This document shows, in pieces, positions 17,179-61,424 of a stretch of 64,000 bases of DNA. The stretch is from Branchiostoma floridae (taxonomy: Eukaryota; Chordata; Leptocardii; Amphioxiformes; Branchiostomatidae): assembly GCF_000003815.2 (NCBI RefSeq), contig NC_049980.1, positions 4,174,370-4,238,369 on the forward strand. Reading direction: 5' to 3'. The position numbers and the translations under genes are program-made. The notes beneath the pieces are model-generated. The model was not told where the DNA came from and did no database searches. It saw only the letters and a list, made by a program, of their open reading frames with translations. Every line of letters begins with the position of its first letter. Position 1 is the stretch's first letter.

Positions 17179-17560
17179 CCAGTATACGAAATGCTTATTT
17201 TTGCGATTTTTTGGTCATTTTTTTACCAAAAAAGGACAGTTTTGGCTCCTGTACCTTGGTTTTAGAACCGGATGACCTGAAATTTAGTATAGGAGTGCCC
17301 TAGACATATGCGCACATGGATTCATTAACAGTTGAGGCATACAGTACAACAAAATGCTTAATTTTGCGATTATTTGGCCATTTTATGACCAAAAAGTACA
17401 TTTTTGGCTCTTGTGCTCTGGTTTTAAAACCAAATGACCTAAATTTTGGTAAAATGGTGCACTAGATATTTATTCAAATGACACATGTATAGTTTTTGTC
17501 ATAGACTACGTCAAAATGATATATTTGGGGATTTTTTTGTCATTTTCAAATAGCCTGAGG
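17179..17560 (+). repeat. Copies of a ~163-bp dispersed repeat
   Basis: About two copies of a unit holding aaatgcttatttttgcgatt, accaaaaaaggac, ttttggctcctgtaccttgg and gacctgaaattt. The same unit is arrayed at 46220-46700. Confidence 0.8.
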
Positions 17561-40345: not shown

Positions 40346-40369
40346 ACAGAGGCTTGTGTGTTGCACTGA

Positions 40370-41585
40370 AGGGCGGTTATACCGACTATACAGGTTCAGA
40401 AGTTGGCGTGTTACACTGAAGGGTGGTTATACCGACTATACAGGTACAGAAGCTGGCGTGTTACACTGAAGGGTGGTTATACTGACTATACAGGTACAGA
40501 AGCTGGTGTGTTACACTGAAGGGCGGTTATACCGGCTATACAGGTACAGAAGCTGGTGTGTTACACTGAAGGGTGTTATACCGACTATACAGGTACAGAA
40601 GCTGGTGTGTTACACTGAAGGGCGGCTATGCCGACTACATATACAGATACAGAAGTTGGTGTGTTACACTGAAGGGCGTTATACCGACTATACAGGTACA
40701 GAAGCTGGTGTGTTACACTGAAGGGTGGTCATACCGACTATACAGGTACAGAAGCTGGTGTGTTACATGAAGGGCGGTTATACCGACTATACAGGTACAG
40801 AAGCTGGTGTGTTACACTGAAGGGCGGTTATACCGACTAAACAGGTACAGAAGCTGGTGTGTTACACTGAAGGGTGGTTATACCGACTATACAGGTACAG
40901 AAGCTGGTGTGTTACACTGAAGGGCGGTTATACCGACTATACAAGAACAGAAGTTGGTCTGTTACACTGAAGGGTGGTTATACCGACTATACAGGTACAG
41001 AAGCTGGTGTGTTACACTGAAGGGTGGTTATACCGACTATACAGGTACAGAAGCTGGTGTGTTACACTGAAGGGTGGTTATACCGACTATACAGGTACAG
41101 AAGCTGGTGTGTTACACTGAAGGGTGGTTATACCGACTATACAGGTACAGAAGCTGGTGTGTTACACTGAAGGGCGGTTATACAGACTAAACAGGTACAG
41201 AAGCTGGTGTGTTACACTGAAGGGTGGTTATACCAACTATACAGGTACAGAAGCAGGTGTGTTACACTGAAGGGCGGTTATACCGGCTATACAGGTACAC
41301 AAACTGGTGTGTGACACTGAAGGGCGGTTATACCGGCTATACAGATACAGAAGCTGGTGTGTGACACTGAAGGGTGGTTATACCGACTATACAGGTACAG
41401 AAGCTGGTGTGTTACACTGAAGGGCGGTTATACCGGCTATACAGGTACAGAAGCTGGTGTGTGACACTGAAGGGCGGTTATACCGGCTATACAGGTACAG
41501 AAGCCGGTGTGTGACACTGAAGGGTGGTTATACTGACTATACAGGTACAGAAGCTGGTGTGTTGCACTGAATTTTCGAAGAGCGG
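40370..41585 (+). repeat. 50-bp minisatellite, about 24 copies
   Basis: Unit: gctggtgtgttacactgaag, ggcggttataccgactatac, aggtacagaa; exactly 50 bp through most of the array (for example 41041-41160). Variable sites are ggc/ggt, accgac/accggc and aggtac/agatac. Degraded units continue to about 41750. Open frames in it are repeat artefacts. Confidence 0.97.
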
Positions 41586-42299: not shown

Positions 42300-42610
42300 A
42301 CACACCTGCTTCAGTCTGTATCTGTATCTGTATATATGTATAGACAGTATAATCGCCTTTCAGCGTAACACATCTGCTTCTGTATCATTCTGTATCTGTA
42401 TAGTCGGTATAACCGCCCTTCAGCGTAACACACCAGCTTCTGTATCTGTATAGTCGGTATAACCGCCCTTCAGCGTAACACACCAGCTTCTGTACCTGTA
42501 TAGTCGGTATAACCGCCCTTCAGTGTAACACATCAGCTTCTGTATCTGTATAGTCGGTATAACCGCCCTTTGAACAGTGTAACACACCAGCTTTTGTTTC
42601 TGTATAGATA
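42300..42610 (-). repeat. 50-bp minisatellite, reverse orientation, about 6 copies
   Basis: The plus strand reads cagcttctgtacctgtatag then tcggtataaccgcccttcag and cgtaacacac, the reverse complement of the unit at 40370. Confidence 0.95.
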
Positions 42611-43089: not shown

Positions 43090-43975
43090 AGTATAGGAAA
43101 GACTTGTGTTACGCCAAAAGGCTGCTTTACCAACTGTATAGATGCAAACAGGAAAGCTTGTGTGTTACGCTAAGGGGCGGTTATATCGACTGTACAGATA
43201 CAGATACAGAAGATCTTGTGTTACACTTAAAGGCAATCATAAAGACTATACAGAAAAGGATACAAAAGTTTAGGTACTACGTTTATGGGCAGTCACAATG
43301 GCCTCAAAGATATACAGACGCTGAATACTGAAGTGCGGTTATACAGGCTATACAGATACAGATGCTGGTGTGTTATGCTGAAGGGCGGTTATACTAGCAA
43401 TAAGGATACAGATACAGATGCTGGTGTGTTATGCTTAAGGCAGTTATACCGACTACAGAGAAACAGGTACAGAAGCTGTTGTGTTACACTGAAGGGCGGT
43501 TATACCGACTACAGAGAAACAGGTACAGAAGCTGGTGTGTTACACTGAAGGGCGGTTATACCGACTACAGAGAAACAGATACAGAAGCTGGTGTGCTACA
43601 CTGAAGGGCGGTTATACCTACTACAGAGAAACAGATACAGAAGCTGGTGTGTTACACTGAAGGGCGGTTATACCTACTACAGAGAAACAGATACAGAAGC
43701 TGGTGTGTTACACTGAAGGGCGGTTATAACGGCTATATAGATACAGAAGCTGGTGTGTTACACTGAAGGGCGGTTATACCGGCTATATAGATACAGAAGC
43801 TGGTGTGTTACACTAAATGGCGGTTATACCGGCTATATAGATACAGAAGCTGGTGTGTTACACTAAATGGCGGTTATACCGGCTATATAGATACAGAAGC
43901 TGGTGTGTTACACTAAATGGCGGTTATACCGGCTATATAGATACAGAAGCTGGTGTGCTTTAGGACGGTTATACC
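43090..43975 (+). repeat. 50/56-bp minisatellite, second direct array
   Basis: The first units are degraded (43090-43440). A block of 56-bp units with gactacagagaaacag follows (about 43450-43720), then perfect 50-bp units with ggctatatagatacagaagc and cactaaatgg (about 43725-43965). Confidence 0.95.
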
Positions 43976-46094: not shown

Positions 46095-46219
46095 CCTGTC
46101 AAATCTTCAAAGTGATTCATCTCCGCCGTTCCTGGACCGAATGACCTGAAATTTGGCACAGGGGTAGAATGGGCCAATACCTTGATGCTTTTTTCTCAGT
46201 TTCTTCATATCTGCCTCTA

Positions 46220-46700
46220 AAATGATTTTATTGAGATTTTTGGGTCAATTTTAGACCAAAACTGTATATTTTGGCCCCTGTACCCTGGTATTACAACCAA
46301 ATGAGCTGAAATTTGACAGAGATGTGCCCTGATAATGCCCCCATATAAATTCAATAACACTTTTGGTGTACAGTACAACAAAATGCTTATTTTTGCGATT
46401 TTTTTACCAATTTTTGACCAAAAAAGGACACTTTTGGCTCCTGTACCTTGGTATTGCAACTGAATGAGCTGAAATTTGACACAGATGTGCCTTGATAATC
46501 CCTTCATATAAATTCAATAACACTTTTGGTGTACAGTGCAACAAAATGCTTATTTTTGCGATTTTTGGCCAATTTTTGACCAAAAAAGGACACTTTTGGC
46601 TCCTGTACCCTGGTATTACAATTAAATGACCTGAAATTTGGTATAGATAGGCATTAGATACTTGGTAACAAGATTCGAGTAAAATTTTTGACATAAACAA
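46220..46700 (+). repeat. ~163-bp tandem repeat, three copies
   Basis: Unit: ggctcctgtaccctggtatt, aaatgagctgaaatttgaca, cattcaataacacttttggt-like, gtacaacaaaatgcttattt and ttgaccaaaaaaggacac. Same family as 17179-17560. Confidence 0.85.
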
Positions 46701-55600: not shown

Positions 55601-58600
55601 TATAGTCAATCTACAGTAACCGTGTTAATTGTCACGACGTTCCTGACCACTTTTTGTCACACTTTCCGTTTTTCTTACCACGCTTGCATCAGTTTTGGGG
55701 TTCCCAGAGGATGTCATCCATATAATTAAATCAACATGGTTTCATCTGTAACCATAACGCAGCAATCGACCCATAAAAGACGGACCTTTATCGCTTTGTG
55801 AAGACTGAAAAATGTCTCGGCCTTTGTACTGGGTTTCTGGAGTGGCCCTCAATGGCTCATCACCATCATTATCGGTCGAAGTGCTTACGCACGACGGGGT
55901 TATACCGCCCCTTACGGGGTGACATACCCTTTCTCTGGCTAATTACAAGACGGGGATGCGCCAGGTCTCCCGTCCGTTTGAATGATGTTAATCACCGTAT
56001 GGCTGATACGAGACAGAGGTTCGCAAGGCCTCTACCTGGGTGATTTGAAGTGAATTACCAACTCCAGACAGAAAAATTTGCACCATCGCACACCGCACCA
56101 TCGTACGTGCATGGGGTGTGACTTTTCCCATACACGGAACCTCCATTAACGTCCTATCCGAGGGACGGCCCAAGCCGAAGCTAGGTACTCATTTTCACCT
56201 GAGTAAAGTGAAGAAAGTCGTGTAAAGTCGTGTATTTATTTTTTCCTTTTTATCCGCCGGTTTGTCATAAGTTGGACAATTTGAAGAAGACAAAATGTCG
56301 GCTACGTGTTTATTGTAGAAATGGCAAAAAAAAAGTTCTGTTTCTGACGGATGCACGTTTGTGTCGCAGAACAGAATCCATTTGGGTATCAGATTCTGTG
56401 GTGAATTACTGTGCATGGCCTCTGTTATGTCTCGTAGACAATGTTTGATGTGTCTACGGACACCCTCCCCGCCAGCCATCAGTTTGAAGCCTTAGACCTG
56501 ACGTCACAGACATGAGTTCTCCCGTAAATGTTGCTAAGTAGACTGGGGCGGAGATGTTTTTGTGGCGATTAGTTAAAAGGTTAAGGTAGTAACGTAGTCT
56601 TTTGGGGGCCGTAGGGGTCGTGGATTGTTATATACTGTGTCTAGGGGACGGTATTCGAAAGCGGAGCCCATCCCTCTCCTTCCACAAATTAACCCCTGTA
56701 ACCACATAACATACATTTTCATAATTCCACCAGGTGCCATTATACCGCCACCTCAAAAAACGTTGTTATAGATGCCTTCTCAATATTGTCTTCAACACCT
56801 AAATATCTGTATTGTATTTCATTTGGTGTTGAAGGCAATCTTGGGAATACTTCTATTCTAACGTTTTTTTGAGGTGGCGGTATTATGGCACCTGGTTGAA
56901 TTATGATAGTCCATGTTACCCATTTTTACGTCTGGATGGAGTGAGGAAAGTCGTGTTGAGCGCCGTTCCAAATGACGCAACGTCTGGCCAAGACATTTAA
57001 CCCGTTATATCACTAGCCTAACTACTCGGCTATTCGACATCGCTGTATAAGCCGTGGTTTTGACGAACAAAAACCGACAAGAGAAACTAGGCCAGCCCGT
57101 GTGCTCTCACGCGGACTTTTGTTAAATGTCTCTGGGGGCCGAAACAGGATACTACTAAGCCCAGCGACACATGTATGCAACGTGCACAGTAGTGTTACGT
57201 GTCCGTCACTAGATACTCAAACACTTGACTTTTGTTTGAATAGGGCCACTTTGAATTCTCAGTCTGTTTGTTGAAACGTTTTGAAATCTAATGTTGCAAC
57301 TTAATGATGCGGGCCTATAACTTTTATCTATTACTTAATGAACAATTATCAATACTAAATAGGCACATATTTCAATGCTTCTATACTTGACATACACTTT
57401 ACACCAACCGTTGGTATGCAAAACCCCACAATTCTCTTCATTAGCGATTTACACTAACCAATACAGTATAACCTTTCGTCTAGAGGTCTGTACATTCATA
57501 CCACACGTAATATATAGCAACTATAAATTCATATTCTTTATACAATTAGATATAATTTAAGCTCCGTACATTTTCAGCTTTATCAAGAAGCGAGAAGTTG
57601 AACCTGTACATACTGAATTAAGTATACGTATACATTAGTTGTAGATTTAGCAAAATCTCATTCTCATATTACTGTATCTGTGCTACTGCTTTTTTTATTG
57701 AAAAATGAATGTAATAATACAAATAAAGGTACGAGGACGAAGTAACGGCGGACTCAAATTGTACTTATTTCAGCGTCGCCACATATACAGAAATTGAAAA
57801 TAATATATTGCACATGACTATAATAACTAAATAACTAGATAAGAATATACATACATGAAAATAGAACAGTGAGCGTGAGTCAACCCCCCCCCCTACCGGT
57901 AGAACAATGAAACAGAGAATGATACTTGAACTTAATAACGTTTTGAAGATATGATATAAACATGTGTAGCCGGCATAACATTAGCTCGCTGAAGCATAAA
58001 CGTGAAATAAAAGCATCTCATTCATTTATTCATTTATCAATCGGTAGAGTTCATGAACACTAAGCATCTATCACTATCTTATCCTACCCGCTACAGGTCC
58101 CGACATTCACACCGTACGCCCTACGGGAGTCCAACGGGCAGGATAGACCAGTAGACCACTACCTGGGGGAACTCAAGTTCGCCATCGAATTCGTCAAGAG
58201 AGGCAGACAACTGAAGGTACAAATTATCATTGAAGAAGTGTTGTTTGGTAATTTTTGTTGCCATACATTGTACCATGTACGATTGTCGAGCAAGAAATAT
58301 GTTGATCTCTCCTTGGTACTGAAAGAATGACTGTAGTAACTAGAAGTACAAGGTATTGCATTAGCGTACTTTGCACCAAGCAAACTGTGATGTTTCAAAC
58401 AAGTGTACAGTATGTTGTTGTTAAGGACAGAATGGCCTACTTTGCGGTATTTCAAAAACTTAGCAGGCCTTTTTCATCTTGCTTTATACAGCTCACATAC
58501 GTCAGAAATACGATGCAAATGATGCAAATATGCTGAAAAGTTTTTTTTCAAATCATTCACGTGAAGGTCTTGTTCTCGAGAACATTATCAATTTCGGTGT

Positions 58601-61424
58601 AAAATGTTACATACTGTGCCTTTAAACGACACATTTTTGGTGCCAATCTTTAAAAGGGAATTTTTGTTTGTTTTTCAGGTGTCAATCATCAAGGCAGAGA
58701 GTCTAGGTGGCCACAAACACGCCAAGAACAACATCAACAGCTACATCCGGCTGTACCTGCTGCCCGGTAAGGTGGGGCGACAGCAGACACGGACAGTCAA
58801 ACACACCAGGAACCCCATCTTCAACGAGGAGTTCTACTTCGGTGGACTAGGTCTACAGGTGGGTTTATGAGTATGTAATTTGATGTAAGAATAGTGAACG
58901 CCATCTCTAGGAACTCCTTTTTCAACCAGGAGTTCTACTTCGGTGGACTAGGTCTACAGGTGGGTTTATGAGTATGTGATTTGATATAAGGATAGTGAAC
59001 GCTATCGCTAGGAACCCCATCTTCAACGAGGAGTTCTACTTCGGTGGGCTAGGTCTACAGGTGAGCAAAAAACTTATGAGTATGTAATTTGATATAAGGA
59101 TAGTGAACGCTATCGCTAGGAACCCCATCTTCAACGAGGAGTTCTACTTCGGTGGGCTGGGTCTACAGGTGAGCAAAAAACTTATGAGTATGTTATTTGA
59201 TATAAGGATAGTGAACGCTATCGCTAGGAATCCCATCTTCAACGAGGAGTTCTACTTCGGTGGACTAGGTCTACAGGTGGGTTTAATAGTATGTAATTTG
59301 ATATAAGGATAGTGAACGCTACCGCTAGTAACTCCATCTTCAGCGAGAAGCTCTACTTCAGTGGGCTGGGGCTATAGGTGGCTTCAGTACTAAGCACATG
59401 TACAGTAAATATGACATAAGGATAGTGGACACTATCGCTAGGAACCTCTTCTTCAAAGAGGAGTTCTTCTACAGTGGGCTGGGTCTAGGTTGGCTAAGGG
59501 GTATAAACAATATAAGGACATTGTGAAGATAGCACTTGATATGAGGAAAGTTGGTTATTTCTAGGTAACCCCGTTTTCAGCGAGAAGTCACTGGCTACTC
59601 CGTATTTTAGCATTATATAACATCATGGACTACCCAAACCAAAGCAAAATGCCGTGTTCTCTGTTGTTGTATTTATCTCTGTCAGTTTTAGTTTTCATTT
59701 GCCATAGGTGAGACTAATTTTAGCTGCTTGCTTGTCGAGTTGATAGATACATAAAAAAGCACTTACAAAACATGTAAGTCATACATGCTATATATGCCCT
59801 TTGACCCAAAAACTTGGTTGCAAACACGTGTACCCAAGGCACGTTGCTCAGACGATCTGCAACGTGCTCCTTCCAAGTATCCCGCAAAGACGATCTTATT
59901 ACAGCATCCAGCCACTTCAGTCAGCTTCAGATGTTAACCTTGTTACATGTTCAGATTGCTTCTGGTGGCAGTTGTGATTAGATTGGCGGCGGTCTCTCCG
60001 TAATTAGAGCACGGCTAAATCTGATTTCTGCTCCCCCAAGCTGAAACGACTGACGCCGGCATTGTCAGGAAAAAGTCTGCGGGGGGAAACATATATATAT
60101 ACGTATCGGCTATATTTGTGTCTGTCTACGTGCAAGGTACTGCAAATAGGCTGGAAAAATAGAGCTATACTCGTACAACCTTGGATATTTAAAGGCGTCT
60201 AGAAATAGATAGGTAAACATTATATGCGCAACGTACCGCAAGAATCGCCTTGAGTGAATTTTGCGGCGACGTCGAGAAATGATATTACCTTTATCGAACG
60301 CAGAAAATAGCGCAGAATTTGTTAGTAACGGAAGTGTTATTTTGTCAACGTGTCGACACAACCAGGCAAATCAAGGAACCATTTTCTCCTTGTCCGAGAA
60401 AGAAAATAAAATTAAGTCTTTCCTAATTTAAAAAAAAAAACGGGTAAAGTTCCTAAGCAGGTACCCCAAATCACCAAAAGACTTAGACAGGAGGTAGCTA
60501 TCACGACACAATTAATAATTTCCTAGAACGTTCAGACGAAGAGCAGCAAATCAGTATTTTACAAGGGGTGAAGTTTCCTATCTCTGCTGATTGTTTTTTA
60601 AACGGTGTTTTTGTCCTGTTTTTTAGATGCTGAACGACATGAAGCTGCGCATGAAGGTGTTCAGCAAGACTCCGCACCTGCGCAGAGACGAGCTGCTGGG
60701 GGAGGTGCAGGTGGTGCTGGGTACCCTGGACCTGAGTCACGAGAACCGCCTCTGGAGAAATCTAGAGCCCAAAACTGAAGCGGAGGTAAGATCTTGTCAT
60801 CATTAAGTTAGGGATAGGGCAGACAATTAAGATGAGCACAACCATCTGAAGTAAATAGCGCGGTGCAGGCGGGATTTACAGACCAAACCATATAGTCTTT
60901 CTCGAACTCGTAACTCCGGTAGTGGGCCACTGGTACCTGGAAGTTTGTATCTCACACAAACATCTCGGCACATTTGAACGAACACTGTTTCAGTCCGTTG
61001 AATCACGTGACTCTTGTCATGGGTCAAAGGTGACAGAAAGTCAAGTACCATCTAGTACATGTACCGAAAATGGTCGGCGCAAATTTCCAAAAAAGCTTTA
61101 AAGAAGGGAATAATAAAGTCATGTGTTCGATGTAGTGCGCCTTTCATCATAAAGAAGCTTTAACTTAAGGGTCGACGTAGCGATGACCTATATAGCTAGC
61201 CCTAACCTAACACATGCACACATCACACATACACTTTTGTTTGTTGCATCTTTTGTATATTTGTATTAAAAATTATATCAGTGTCATTAATGTTATTTTC
61301 CTTTCCACACAGGACCTGGGCATGCTGAATGTGTCTCTCTGCTACCAGCCCAGATCAGAAAACCTCATCGTTACCGTCATCAAGGCCGAGGGGATGCCGA
61401 GAAACAACATCTTAACTCCACCTG
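51660..61424 (+). CDS. C2CD4: C2CD4-family C2-domain protein, partial at 3' end
   Basis: Predicted cytoplasmic/nuclear C2-domain protein related to vertebrate C2CD4A-D. Exons: 51660-52601, 58097-58216, 58679-58858, 60627-60785, 61313-61424; the gene continues past the window. The first four junctions are phase 0 and the last donor is phase 1. Residues 1-314 hold the two C2CD4 signatures: TNVLTPETIPEFLIPP (31-46) and RTRTAYGFTTLTQSP followed by RKESL (151-173). A Ser/Pro/Arg-rich low-complexity linker follows. Residues ~338-467 form a C2 domain (GELKFAIEFVKRGRQLK; NPIFNEEFYFGGLGLQ; DELLGEVQVVLGTLDL). Residues 468-504 (DLGMLNVSLCYQPRSENLIV, then TVIKAEGMP) begin a second, C2B-like domain, as in synaptotagmins. 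Vertebrate C2CD4 genes are known as single-C2, essentially single-coding-exon genes, so this layout is unusual. C2A lacks most Ca2+-binding aspartates. Confidence 0.85.
52740..53157 (+). repeat. Intronic tandem repeat, about 3 copies, period ~145-160 bp
   Basis: Shared: tttttcgaccgcctaggc, aaacattgcaacttagccgg, and tttcatcttttcattcat. It ends directly at the TTAA target of the piggyBac-like element. Confidence 0.85.
53162..54129. mobile_element. piggyBac-like non-autonomous element
   Basis: The ends ccctcaagcacccga and tcgggtgtttgaggg are inverted repeats, flanked on both sides by TTAA (53158-53161, 54130-54133), the hallmark target of piggyBac transposons; piggyBac ends also typically start CCC. 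968 bp, no transposase. Inside are three 20-bp palindromes of the form tggggtccaaayggacccca at about 53203-53222, 53917-53936 and 54092-54111, probably transposase-binding or structural sites. It sits in intron 1 of the C2CD4-like gene. Confidence 0.85.
54738..54765. repeat. Perfect 12-bp hairpin
   Basis: cacggtaacatt, loop attc, aatgttaccgtg. A related string (ccataaccgtggtaattgtc) follows at 54810. Confidence 0.9.
55160..55770 (+). repeat. Intronic duplications
   Basis: 55185-55290 and 55645-55750 share ttttcttaccacgcttgcat, cagttttggg and gaggatgtcatccatataat. In addition 55310-55590 recurs at 57047-57310 (aaaaaccgacaagagaaact, cacgcggacttttg, taagcccagtgacacatgta). Confidence 0.8.
55771..56099. 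other. Intron 1, nothing recognised
   Basis: No exon signal. A gggcggtataac-like string near 55900 loosely recalls the retroposon tail. Confidence 0.35.
56100..56225 (-). mobile_element. SINE fragment
   Basis: The minus strand reads tcttcactttactcaggtga, aaatgagtacctagcttcgg, cgtccctcggataggacgtt and aatggaggttccgtg, as in the other SINE copies. Confidence 0.75.
56226..56719. other. Intron 1, nothing recognised
   Basis: Overlapping open frames on both strands at 56195-56479 have no domain signature. Confidence 0.4.
56720..56905. mobile_element. Fold-back MITE
   Basis: cataattccaccaggtgcca then ttataccgccacctcaaaaa, inverted at the right end (tttttttgaggtggcggtat, then tatggcacctggttgaatta). 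Arms extend to about 80 bp with mismatches. No coding. Confidence 0.85.
56925..57045 (-). mobile_element. SINE fragment (second subtype)
   Basis: The plus strand reads acgtctggatggagtgagga aagtcgtg (split here), then a tRNA-head-like tattcgacatcgc, in the pattern of 39660-39800. Confidence 0.5.
57047..57310 (+). repeat. Second copy of the 55310-55590 repeat
   Basis: Shares ggttttgacgaacaaaaacc, gacaagagaaactaggcc, ctctcacgcggacttttg and gcccagcgacacatgtatgc. Confidence 0.8.
57311..58096. other. Intron 1, 3' part
   Basis: AT-rich; ends at the acceptor cccgctacag. No other signal. Confidence 0.5.
58097..58216 (+). CDS. C2CD4: C2CD4-like gene, exon 2
   Basis: 120 nt, 40 codons, phase 0 at both ends (acceptor ctacag, donor CTGAAG followed by gtacaa). 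Encodes the linker and the first strand of C2A (YLGELKFAIEFVKRGRQLK). Confidence 0.85.
58679..58858 (+). CDS. C2CD4: C2CD4-like gene, exon 3
   Basis: 180 nt, 60 codons, phase 0 at both ends (acceptor gtttttcag, donor CTACAG followed by gtgggt). Encodes VSIIKAESLGGHKHA, then SYIRLYLLPGK and NPIFNEEFYFGGLGLQ, the middle of C2A. In loop 1 the usual Asp pair of Ca2+-binding C2 domains is replaced (GGHKH and NSY). Confidence 0.9.
58810..59600 (+). repeat. Tandem array of the exon-3 end, about 8 copies
   Basis: Units of 101-124 bp, beginning aggaaccccatcttcaacga and running through ggagttctacttcggtggac, taggtctacag and a donor gtgggt or gtgagc, then atttgatataaggatagtga and acgctatcgct. The first unit includes the real exon-3 end. 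The next four keep the coding string (NPIFNEEFYFGGLGLQ or near) and a donor. The last three decay (stop codons, lost donor). The two middle copies carry an 8-bp difference (gtgagcaaaaaactt). Confidence 0.95.
59601..60626. other. Intron 3 remainder
   Basis: No exon. Ends with a good acceptor (ttttgtcctgttttttag) before exon 4. Confidence 0.6.
60627..60785 (+). CDS. C2CD4: C2CD4-like gene, exon 4
   Basis: 159 nt, 53 codons, phase 0 at both ends (donor GCGGAG followed by gtaaga). Encodes MLNDMKLRMKVFSKTPHLRR then DELLGEVQVVLGTLDLSHEN, the C-terminal strands of C2A. In loop 3 the usual DxDxxxxxD ligands are absent (FSKTPHLRRDE). Confidence 0.9.
60786..61312. other. Intron 4
   Basis: Plain intron with acceptor ttttcctttccacacag. 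Nothing else seen. Confidence 0.6.
61313..61424 (+). CDS. C2CD4: C2CD4-like gene, exon 5 (start of second C2)
   Basis: 112 nt ending in phase 1 (donor CCACCTG followed by gtgagt). Encodes DLGMLNVSLCYQPRSENLIV then TVIKAEGMPRNN, the first two strands of a C2B-type domain (compare the generic LGxLxxSLxYxPxxxxLxV pattern). The next exon lies beyond the window. Confidence 0.85.

Follow-up and report, generated by a model that had tools for sequence, protein, structure and literature searches.

Results

The end of a C2 exon is repeated in tandem in the following intron

We analyzed a stretch of 64,000 nucleotides (nt) of the genome of the amphioxus Branchiostoma floridae (contig NC_049980.1, positions 4,174,370 to 4,238,369; the whole stretch is referred to here as the window), in which a synaptotagmin-like gene carries, within its third intron, a tandem array built from the end of its own third exon. 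Exon 3 matches the C2 domain of Pfam (E 6e-10), and when it was joined to part of exon 4, the best solved-structure matches were synaptotagmins. Intron 3 occupies positions 58859-60626, as bounded by exons 3 and 4, and the donor at 58858/58859 is most likely the one that produces the normal mRNA. The repeated unit consists of the last 51 nt of exon 3, the donor and approximately 50 nt of intron, and the array extends from 58808 to approximately 59587. The features are as follows (the slash in a splice motif marks the exon-intron boundary):

58097..58216, + strand: exon 2 of the host gene, 40 codons, phase 0 (open frame, splice signals, and a tblastn match to a paralog at 63% identity)
58679..58858, + strand: exon 3, 60 codons, phase 0-0, first half of the C2 domain, synaptotagmin-like
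58808..58858, + strand: copy c1, the source of the array, last 51 nt of exon 3, peptide RNPIFNEEFYFGGLGLQ
58859..58908, + strand: donor of exon 3, CAG/GTGGGT, and the 50 nt of intron that belong to unit c1
58909..59009, + strand: copy c2, 101 nt, with P3S, I4F and E7Q; donor identical to that of exon 3
59010..59117, + strand: copy c3, 108 nt, exact exon peptide RNPIFNEEFYFGGLGLQ with one synonymous change; donor CAG/GTGAGC
59118..59225, + strand: copy c4, 108 nt, exact exon peptide RNPIFNEEFYFGGLGLQ with two synonymous changes; donor CAG/GTGAGC
59226..59326, + strand: copy c5, 101 nt, exact peptide RNPIFNEEFYFGGLGLQ with one synonymous change; donor as in exon 3
59327..59439, + strand: copy c6, 113 nt, decayed, in-frame stop, weak donor TAG/GTGGCT
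59440..59563, + strand: copy c7, 124 nt, decayed, boundary lacking two bases, weak donor TAG/GTTGGC
59564..59587, + strand: remnant c8, 24 nt, exon part only
60627..60785, + strand: exon 4, second half of the C2 domain, phase 0

Tandem Repeats Finder (TRF) placed the array at 58808-59487 (period 101, 6.5 copies, score 811), and a repeat finder recovered a 23-nt family of eight members at spacings of 101, 101, 108, 108, 101, 113 and 124, with units starting at 58808 (in the exon), 58909, 59010, 59118, 59226, 59327, 59440 and 59564. Among 100 dinucleotide shuffles of 57801-60600, none yielded an array with a score of at least 50; from the real stretch, the same parser returned arrays with scores of 811 and 578. 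The amplification of an exon end together with its donor and intron, which had been proposed from the letters alone (the sequence-only reading), is thus borne out by two programs and the shuffles. Its figure of about eight copies holds for the number of family members, but these members are unequal: besides the exon copy itself, there are the four copies c2-c5, which are well kept, the decayed copies c6 and c7, and the 24-nt remnant c8. The last exon-like bases of c1-c5 lie at 58858, 58959, 59060, 59168 and 59276; two of the donor positions proposed earlier (58959 and 59168) are therefore correct, and the other two (59059 and 59277) were each off by one.

The exon parts of c2-c7 differ from c1 at 4, 1, 2, 1, 10 and 11 positions. 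The gradient of decay that had been described is real at the distal end, where c6 carries a stop, c7 is decayed and both donors are weak; a monotonic decay with distance is ruled out, because c2, the copy nearest to the exon, has three amino-acid changes and c3-c5 have none.

A paralogous gene carries a sister array

When the 513-Mb genome was searched with the array DNA, with very common words skipped, one further match was reported, at G000:C2:460155-460535. This match is on the same contig at a distance of 3.77 Mb, points in the opposite direction and falls in a paralogous gene that carries the exon-end unit four times (p1-p4), against approximately seven units and a remnant in the window. 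Because of this paralogous occurrence, it is extremely unlikely that the array is an assembly artefact in which the reference gained or fused copies: the paralog bears a separate version of the array between different flanks, and most units bear their own substitutions, although only one haplotype is assembled, so that the copy number may be off.

The two genes agree in 59/60 residues of exon 3 and are almost identical in exon 4. Beside this near-identity, exon 2 is strongly diverged (63% of residues identical) and the introns are mostly unalignable (window against L003), which conversion or uneven constraint could explain. When 9.5 kb of the paralog was compared with the window, the gene parts that could be aligned were exons 2, 3 and 4, the array and approximately 35 nt before exon 3; the remaining matches fall elsewhere in the window. 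Synonymous divergence (dS) between the paralogs amounts to 0.30 over codons 1-43 of exon 3 and to 0.16 over exon 4, and exon 3 has no difference in its last 51 nt (17 codons) versus nine in its first 129.

The copies themselves have been reshuffled. By their intron parts, we assigned c1-c5, p2 and p3 to a short type and c6, p1 and p4 to a long type, the similarities within the latter being z 6.5 for p1-p4, 7.9 for c6-p1 and 5.0 for c6-p4; the intron part of c6 is intermediate between the two types. At codons 56-57 of exon 3, the exon haplotypes GGA CTA and GGG CTG (the latter being the array type) each occur with both intron types, even when c6 is omitted, which points to recombination inside units. 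Together with the near-identity of c3 and c4, which have a 7-nt insertion in common, this supports the homogenisation suggested by the sequence-only reading. In a tree, the units of both loci interleave with weak supports (21-70), and the array would either predate the split of the two genes or have moved between them.

Purifying selection near the exon had been offered as another cause of the pattern. Among the seven collinear units (c1-c5, p2 and p3), 12/51 sites vary in the exon part and 14/50 in the intron part; taken as a whole, the coding part shows no clear excess of conservation, and selection on the copies themselves need not be invoked.

A 21-base-pair (bp) minisatellite of 27 copies adjoins the array of the paralog (L003, 4075-4648), and by our own reading its motif recurs in the intron parts of p1 and p4; it is perhaps a minisatellite grown out of a minisatellite.

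The array has the structure of an amphioxus mirage

Tandem repeats over exon-intron boundaries, termed mirages, have been described in the amphioxus Adh3 and globin genes, and according to the sections of that report used here, many copies carry AG/GT and regular splicing is apparently undisturbed, the arrays differ in length (copy number) between haplotypes, and they evolve in concert (PMC3087553). The same sections describe, for the Gb6 mirage, inner units that are homogenised and outer ones that are excluded, with a repeat unit of 150-160 bp in B. floridae, and for Gb9, a 3' exon boundary with a single duplicate (PMC3087553). A second report, likewise represented by parts of its text, describes 60-bp and 108-bp repeats over splice sites of PGBD5, cites troponin C as a further case and also describes splicing as apparently undisturbed (PMC3902484).

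The exon 3 array shows those structural features of mirages that could be tested. It is a minisatellite-like tandem repeat spanning an exon-intron boundary, AG/GT signals are kept in many but not all copies, and its units evolve in concert with the outer ones excluded (c3 and c4 are near-identical, c6-c8 are decayed, and the intron part of c1 has private changes). It resembles the amphioxus mirages in these boundary-spanning repeats, in the AG/GT of many copies and in its homogenised inner units; it differs in lying in another gene, in having more copies than that of Gb9, in a paralog that shares the array and in a synonymous bias that has been measured (see below). A Pfam globin search of the genome gave nine places. 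At one of them (L016; G000:C18, globin place 7180855-7181067), the 5' boundary of a globin exon is spanned by an array with a 158-bp unit and 4.2 copies, which in the length of its unit and in its position fits the Gb6 mirage as published.

The consulted part of PMC3087553 cites work on introns gained when exon sequence with AG/GT ends is duplicated in tandem (Rogers; Zhuo; Gao and Lynch). The exon 3 array is similar in that exon sequence has been doubled with AG and GT ends, but no new intron has arisen, and the copies sit in an existing one. Potato RdRp is reportedly an instance of such a gain (PMC4974935).

Splice signals and reading-frame consequences of the copies

At the unit boundaries, AGGT occurs as CAG/GT in c1-c5 and as TAG/GT in c6 and c7; c2-c5 thus keep a donor, c6 and c7 have weak ones, and c8 has none. 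With a human-type matrix that is good for ranking only, the donors scored 9.94 for exon 3, 11.23 for c3 and c4, 4.24 for c6 and 3.13 for c7. The use of copies as alternative donors, raised by the sequence-only reading, is not supported as a source of protein: each of the five downstream donors tested (c2-c6) leads to an identical early stop after V-G-L, and a protein-lengthening role is therefore rejected. In this frame test, exon 4 was used with 6 nt of intron attached, and the outcome was unchanged.

Those early stops would suit another kind of role, in which downstream donors are sometimes used, the early-stop mRNAs are destroyed, and the length of the array tunes gene output. Exon 3 shares its donor sequence with c2 and c5 and is outscored by c3 and c4 (11.23 vs 9.94); splicing from any of these four copies would lead to a stop after three codons. 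Published mirages, however, appear not to disturb regular splicing in the parts of the two reports available here (PMC3087553, PMC3902484), and we regard such regulation by poison donors as unlikely.

The presence of CAG/GT at c1-c5 also bears on a recursive mode of splicing, in which dual-specific sites would act as acceptor and then as donor, so that the array is removed unit by unit and the mRNA is unchanged. Tandem dual-specific splice sites have a precedent in the human polyubiquitin gene UBC, as far as the part of the report at hand goes, where AGGT likewise stands at the unit boundaries of a tandem array (PMC10809524). The UBC units, however, are coding, 228 nt long and frame-keeping, whereas those described here are intronic, mostly 101 or 108 nt long and bring a stop when retained (5/5 donors), and frame-neutral retention of the UBC type was not found. 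Upstream of these sites, only 55% of bases are pyrimidines, against 70% at exon 3 and 80% at exon 4, and copy p2 of the paralog has GC where the donor GT is expected. Recursive removal thus appears improbable, somewhat more so than poison donors.

The sequence-only reading also raised, from the AG at each unit start, the idea that the copies could be duplicated mini-exons. That AG is present, but it belongs to the exon's own AGG (Arg) codon, with 45-50% pyrimidine upstream compared with 70% at exon 3 and 80% at exon 4. Each single 49-nt mini-exon (c2, c3, c4 or c5) shifts the frame (4/4), so that single mini-exons are rejected as coding sequence; a triple (147 nt) restores it, and two of the four possible triples, c3+c4+c5 among them, are free of stops, with the outer copies read in shifted frames. 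The same stop in 5/5 donors and the frame shifts in 4/4 mini-exons mean that no single extra donor or mini-exon yields a useful protein. What the signals would still allow is a short-lived mRNA, silent recursive steps or the inclusion of mini-exons in threes.

Coding selection on alternative mini-exons could nevertheless be read from the peptide itself. The exact exon peptide is encoded by five of the nine intronic copies compared (c3, c4, c5, p3 and p4), p3 and p4 with 4 and 5 synonymous changes, and these five copies and the two exons vary at six sites, all of them third positions. The five were, however, chosen for being perfect, the exon-derived and intron-derived halves of the units are about equally variable, and a copy read in a shifted frame would not give the peptide that is supposedly selected. 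We consider this explanation very improbable.

Arrays on exon edges elsewhere in the genome

The genome contains at least 87 C2 matches, 23 of which were read, with the host gene and its paralog left out; they comprise 15 of the first 17 stop-free loci and a further eight that were picked from lower in the list, with one of the two passed over at first. In 2/23, TRF placed an array over the edge of an exon. The first (L038; G000:C4:7446595-7448112, reverse strand) lies on the donor side of a C2 exon, with eight anchors at spacings of 76-86, all eight of which carry the exon end and ATG/GTAGGT. The second (L055; G000:C8:25173216-25174034, reverse strand) is a 133-bp array on the acceptor side of a C2 exon; over 25 codons, two copies show five synonymous changes relative to the exon and no more than one amino-acid change.

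Arrays with a period of at least 40 covered 3.4% of a 200 kb sample (lengths summed by hand), which consisted of the 20 lowest of 60 random bins on one chromosome, unevenly spread over 1.89-10.9 Mb. By our arithmetic, approximately 1.6 of the 23 loci would be expected by chance, with two edges each, against the two observed, and this small sample lends no support to the view that arrays form preferentially at exon edges. We read mirages as the tolerated part of a high rate of tandem duplication, since the copies fall into introns.

Some further observations were made along the way. At L038, mini-exons from AG/GAG to ATG would be 33 nt long, in frame in the copies without a 4-nt insertion and preceded by 60% pyrimidine, which makes that array a better candidate for duplicated mini-exons than the one in the window. 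At L047 (G000:C5:9389868-9391295), the apparent acceptor end of an exon and one degenerate upstream copy (75.6%) lie at 355-436 and 521-609, perhaps an old mirage remnant, and L045 has a 41-bp array just past its C2 match. Within the window, three arrays (40346-41571, 42388-42607 and 43327-43957) have, by eye, a common unit of approximately 50 bp, which one array carries in reverse orientation, and two distant arrays (17189-17546 and 46219-46640) have units of approximately 162 bp that look related, perhaps a dispersed repeat.

Codon changes of the copies relative to their exons

Distinct codon changes of the less decayed copies relative to their own exon were counted in four arrays. Synonymous and non-synonymous changes numbered 7:5 in the exon 3 array (seven less decayed copies; c6, c7 and c8 left out), 8:3 in the Gb6 array (counted up to a frameshift), 2:0 at L038 (copies with the 4-nt insertion left out) and 5:1 at L055. 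The pooled count of 22 synonymous versus 9 non-synonymous changes has P 1.4e-7 under freely mutating copies (p 0.255, a value derived for exon 3 only) and P 4.8e-4 if the copies decay and the exon alone is constrained (p 0.4, assumed). Without the exon 3 array, the other three give 15:4 (P 6.4e-4 at p 0.4). Literature searches found no earlier report of a synonymous-bias measure in mirages, and to our knowledge, synonymous and non-synonymous changes of mirage copies have not been compared before.

The simplest account of this bias in the less decayed copies would be exchange between diverged alleles, the copies having long served as exons.

Discussion

The exon 3 array is real; it is a mirage that is probably old, and its paralog is informative. 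Direct observation of the array, of its sister in the paralog, of reshuffled units, of the frame consequences and of a synonymous bias in the less decayed copies across four arrays is best explained by a mirage that has been grown and reshuffled by unequal exchange and whose copies are captured sequence without a function of their own; we give this reading a probability of roughly 0.78. The 3' boundary of exon 3 would have been duplicated in tandem, seeding a minisatellite that unequal exchange would then have lengthened, shortened and reshuffled within intron 3. The well-kept copies would be exon ends taken from other alleles or from earlier states of the exon, and distal copies would leave the exchange and then decay. 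From this we infer that allele exchange is the source of the synonymous bias and that the array itself is most likely functionless; the copies seem closer to a store of former exon versions than to additional functional exons.

Several points weigh against this interpretation. The exon 3 array alone shows no bias (7:5, P 0.16 at p 0.4), nor does it when c6 and c7 are included (8:16, P 0.81), and with these two copies the four-array pool falls to 23:20 (P 0.051). The codon changes were counted post hoc in copies that share ancestry, and the value of 0.255 was taken from a single exon. The identity of the exon 3 ends between the paralogs is marginal (P 0.046; for synonymous sites, P 0.073). The intron types are not clean, as the intron part of c6 is equally near to c3 and c5 (z 8.4 and 7.9) and to p1 (7.9), and the evidence comes from the genomic DNA alone of one individual in one assembly.

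Beyond the mirage as such, we tentatively entertain, as a possibility rather less probable than its opposite, that exon ends and intronic copies exchange in both directions, so that the array would archive exon alleles and selection on the exon would filter the survivors. If this were true, the last codons of the exon would be replaced from the array at intervals, the copies would preserve former exon alleles in situ, and the exon ends at mirages would evolve unlike the rest of their exons. Mirages have also been proposed as a source of new introns. The paralog and the three further arrays in one genome allow the exon's part in the exchange to be asked. If the exon takes no part, the array would be a clear example of tolerated minisatellite growth; if the coding exon does join the exchange, minisatellite turnover would edit the ends of protein-coding exons.

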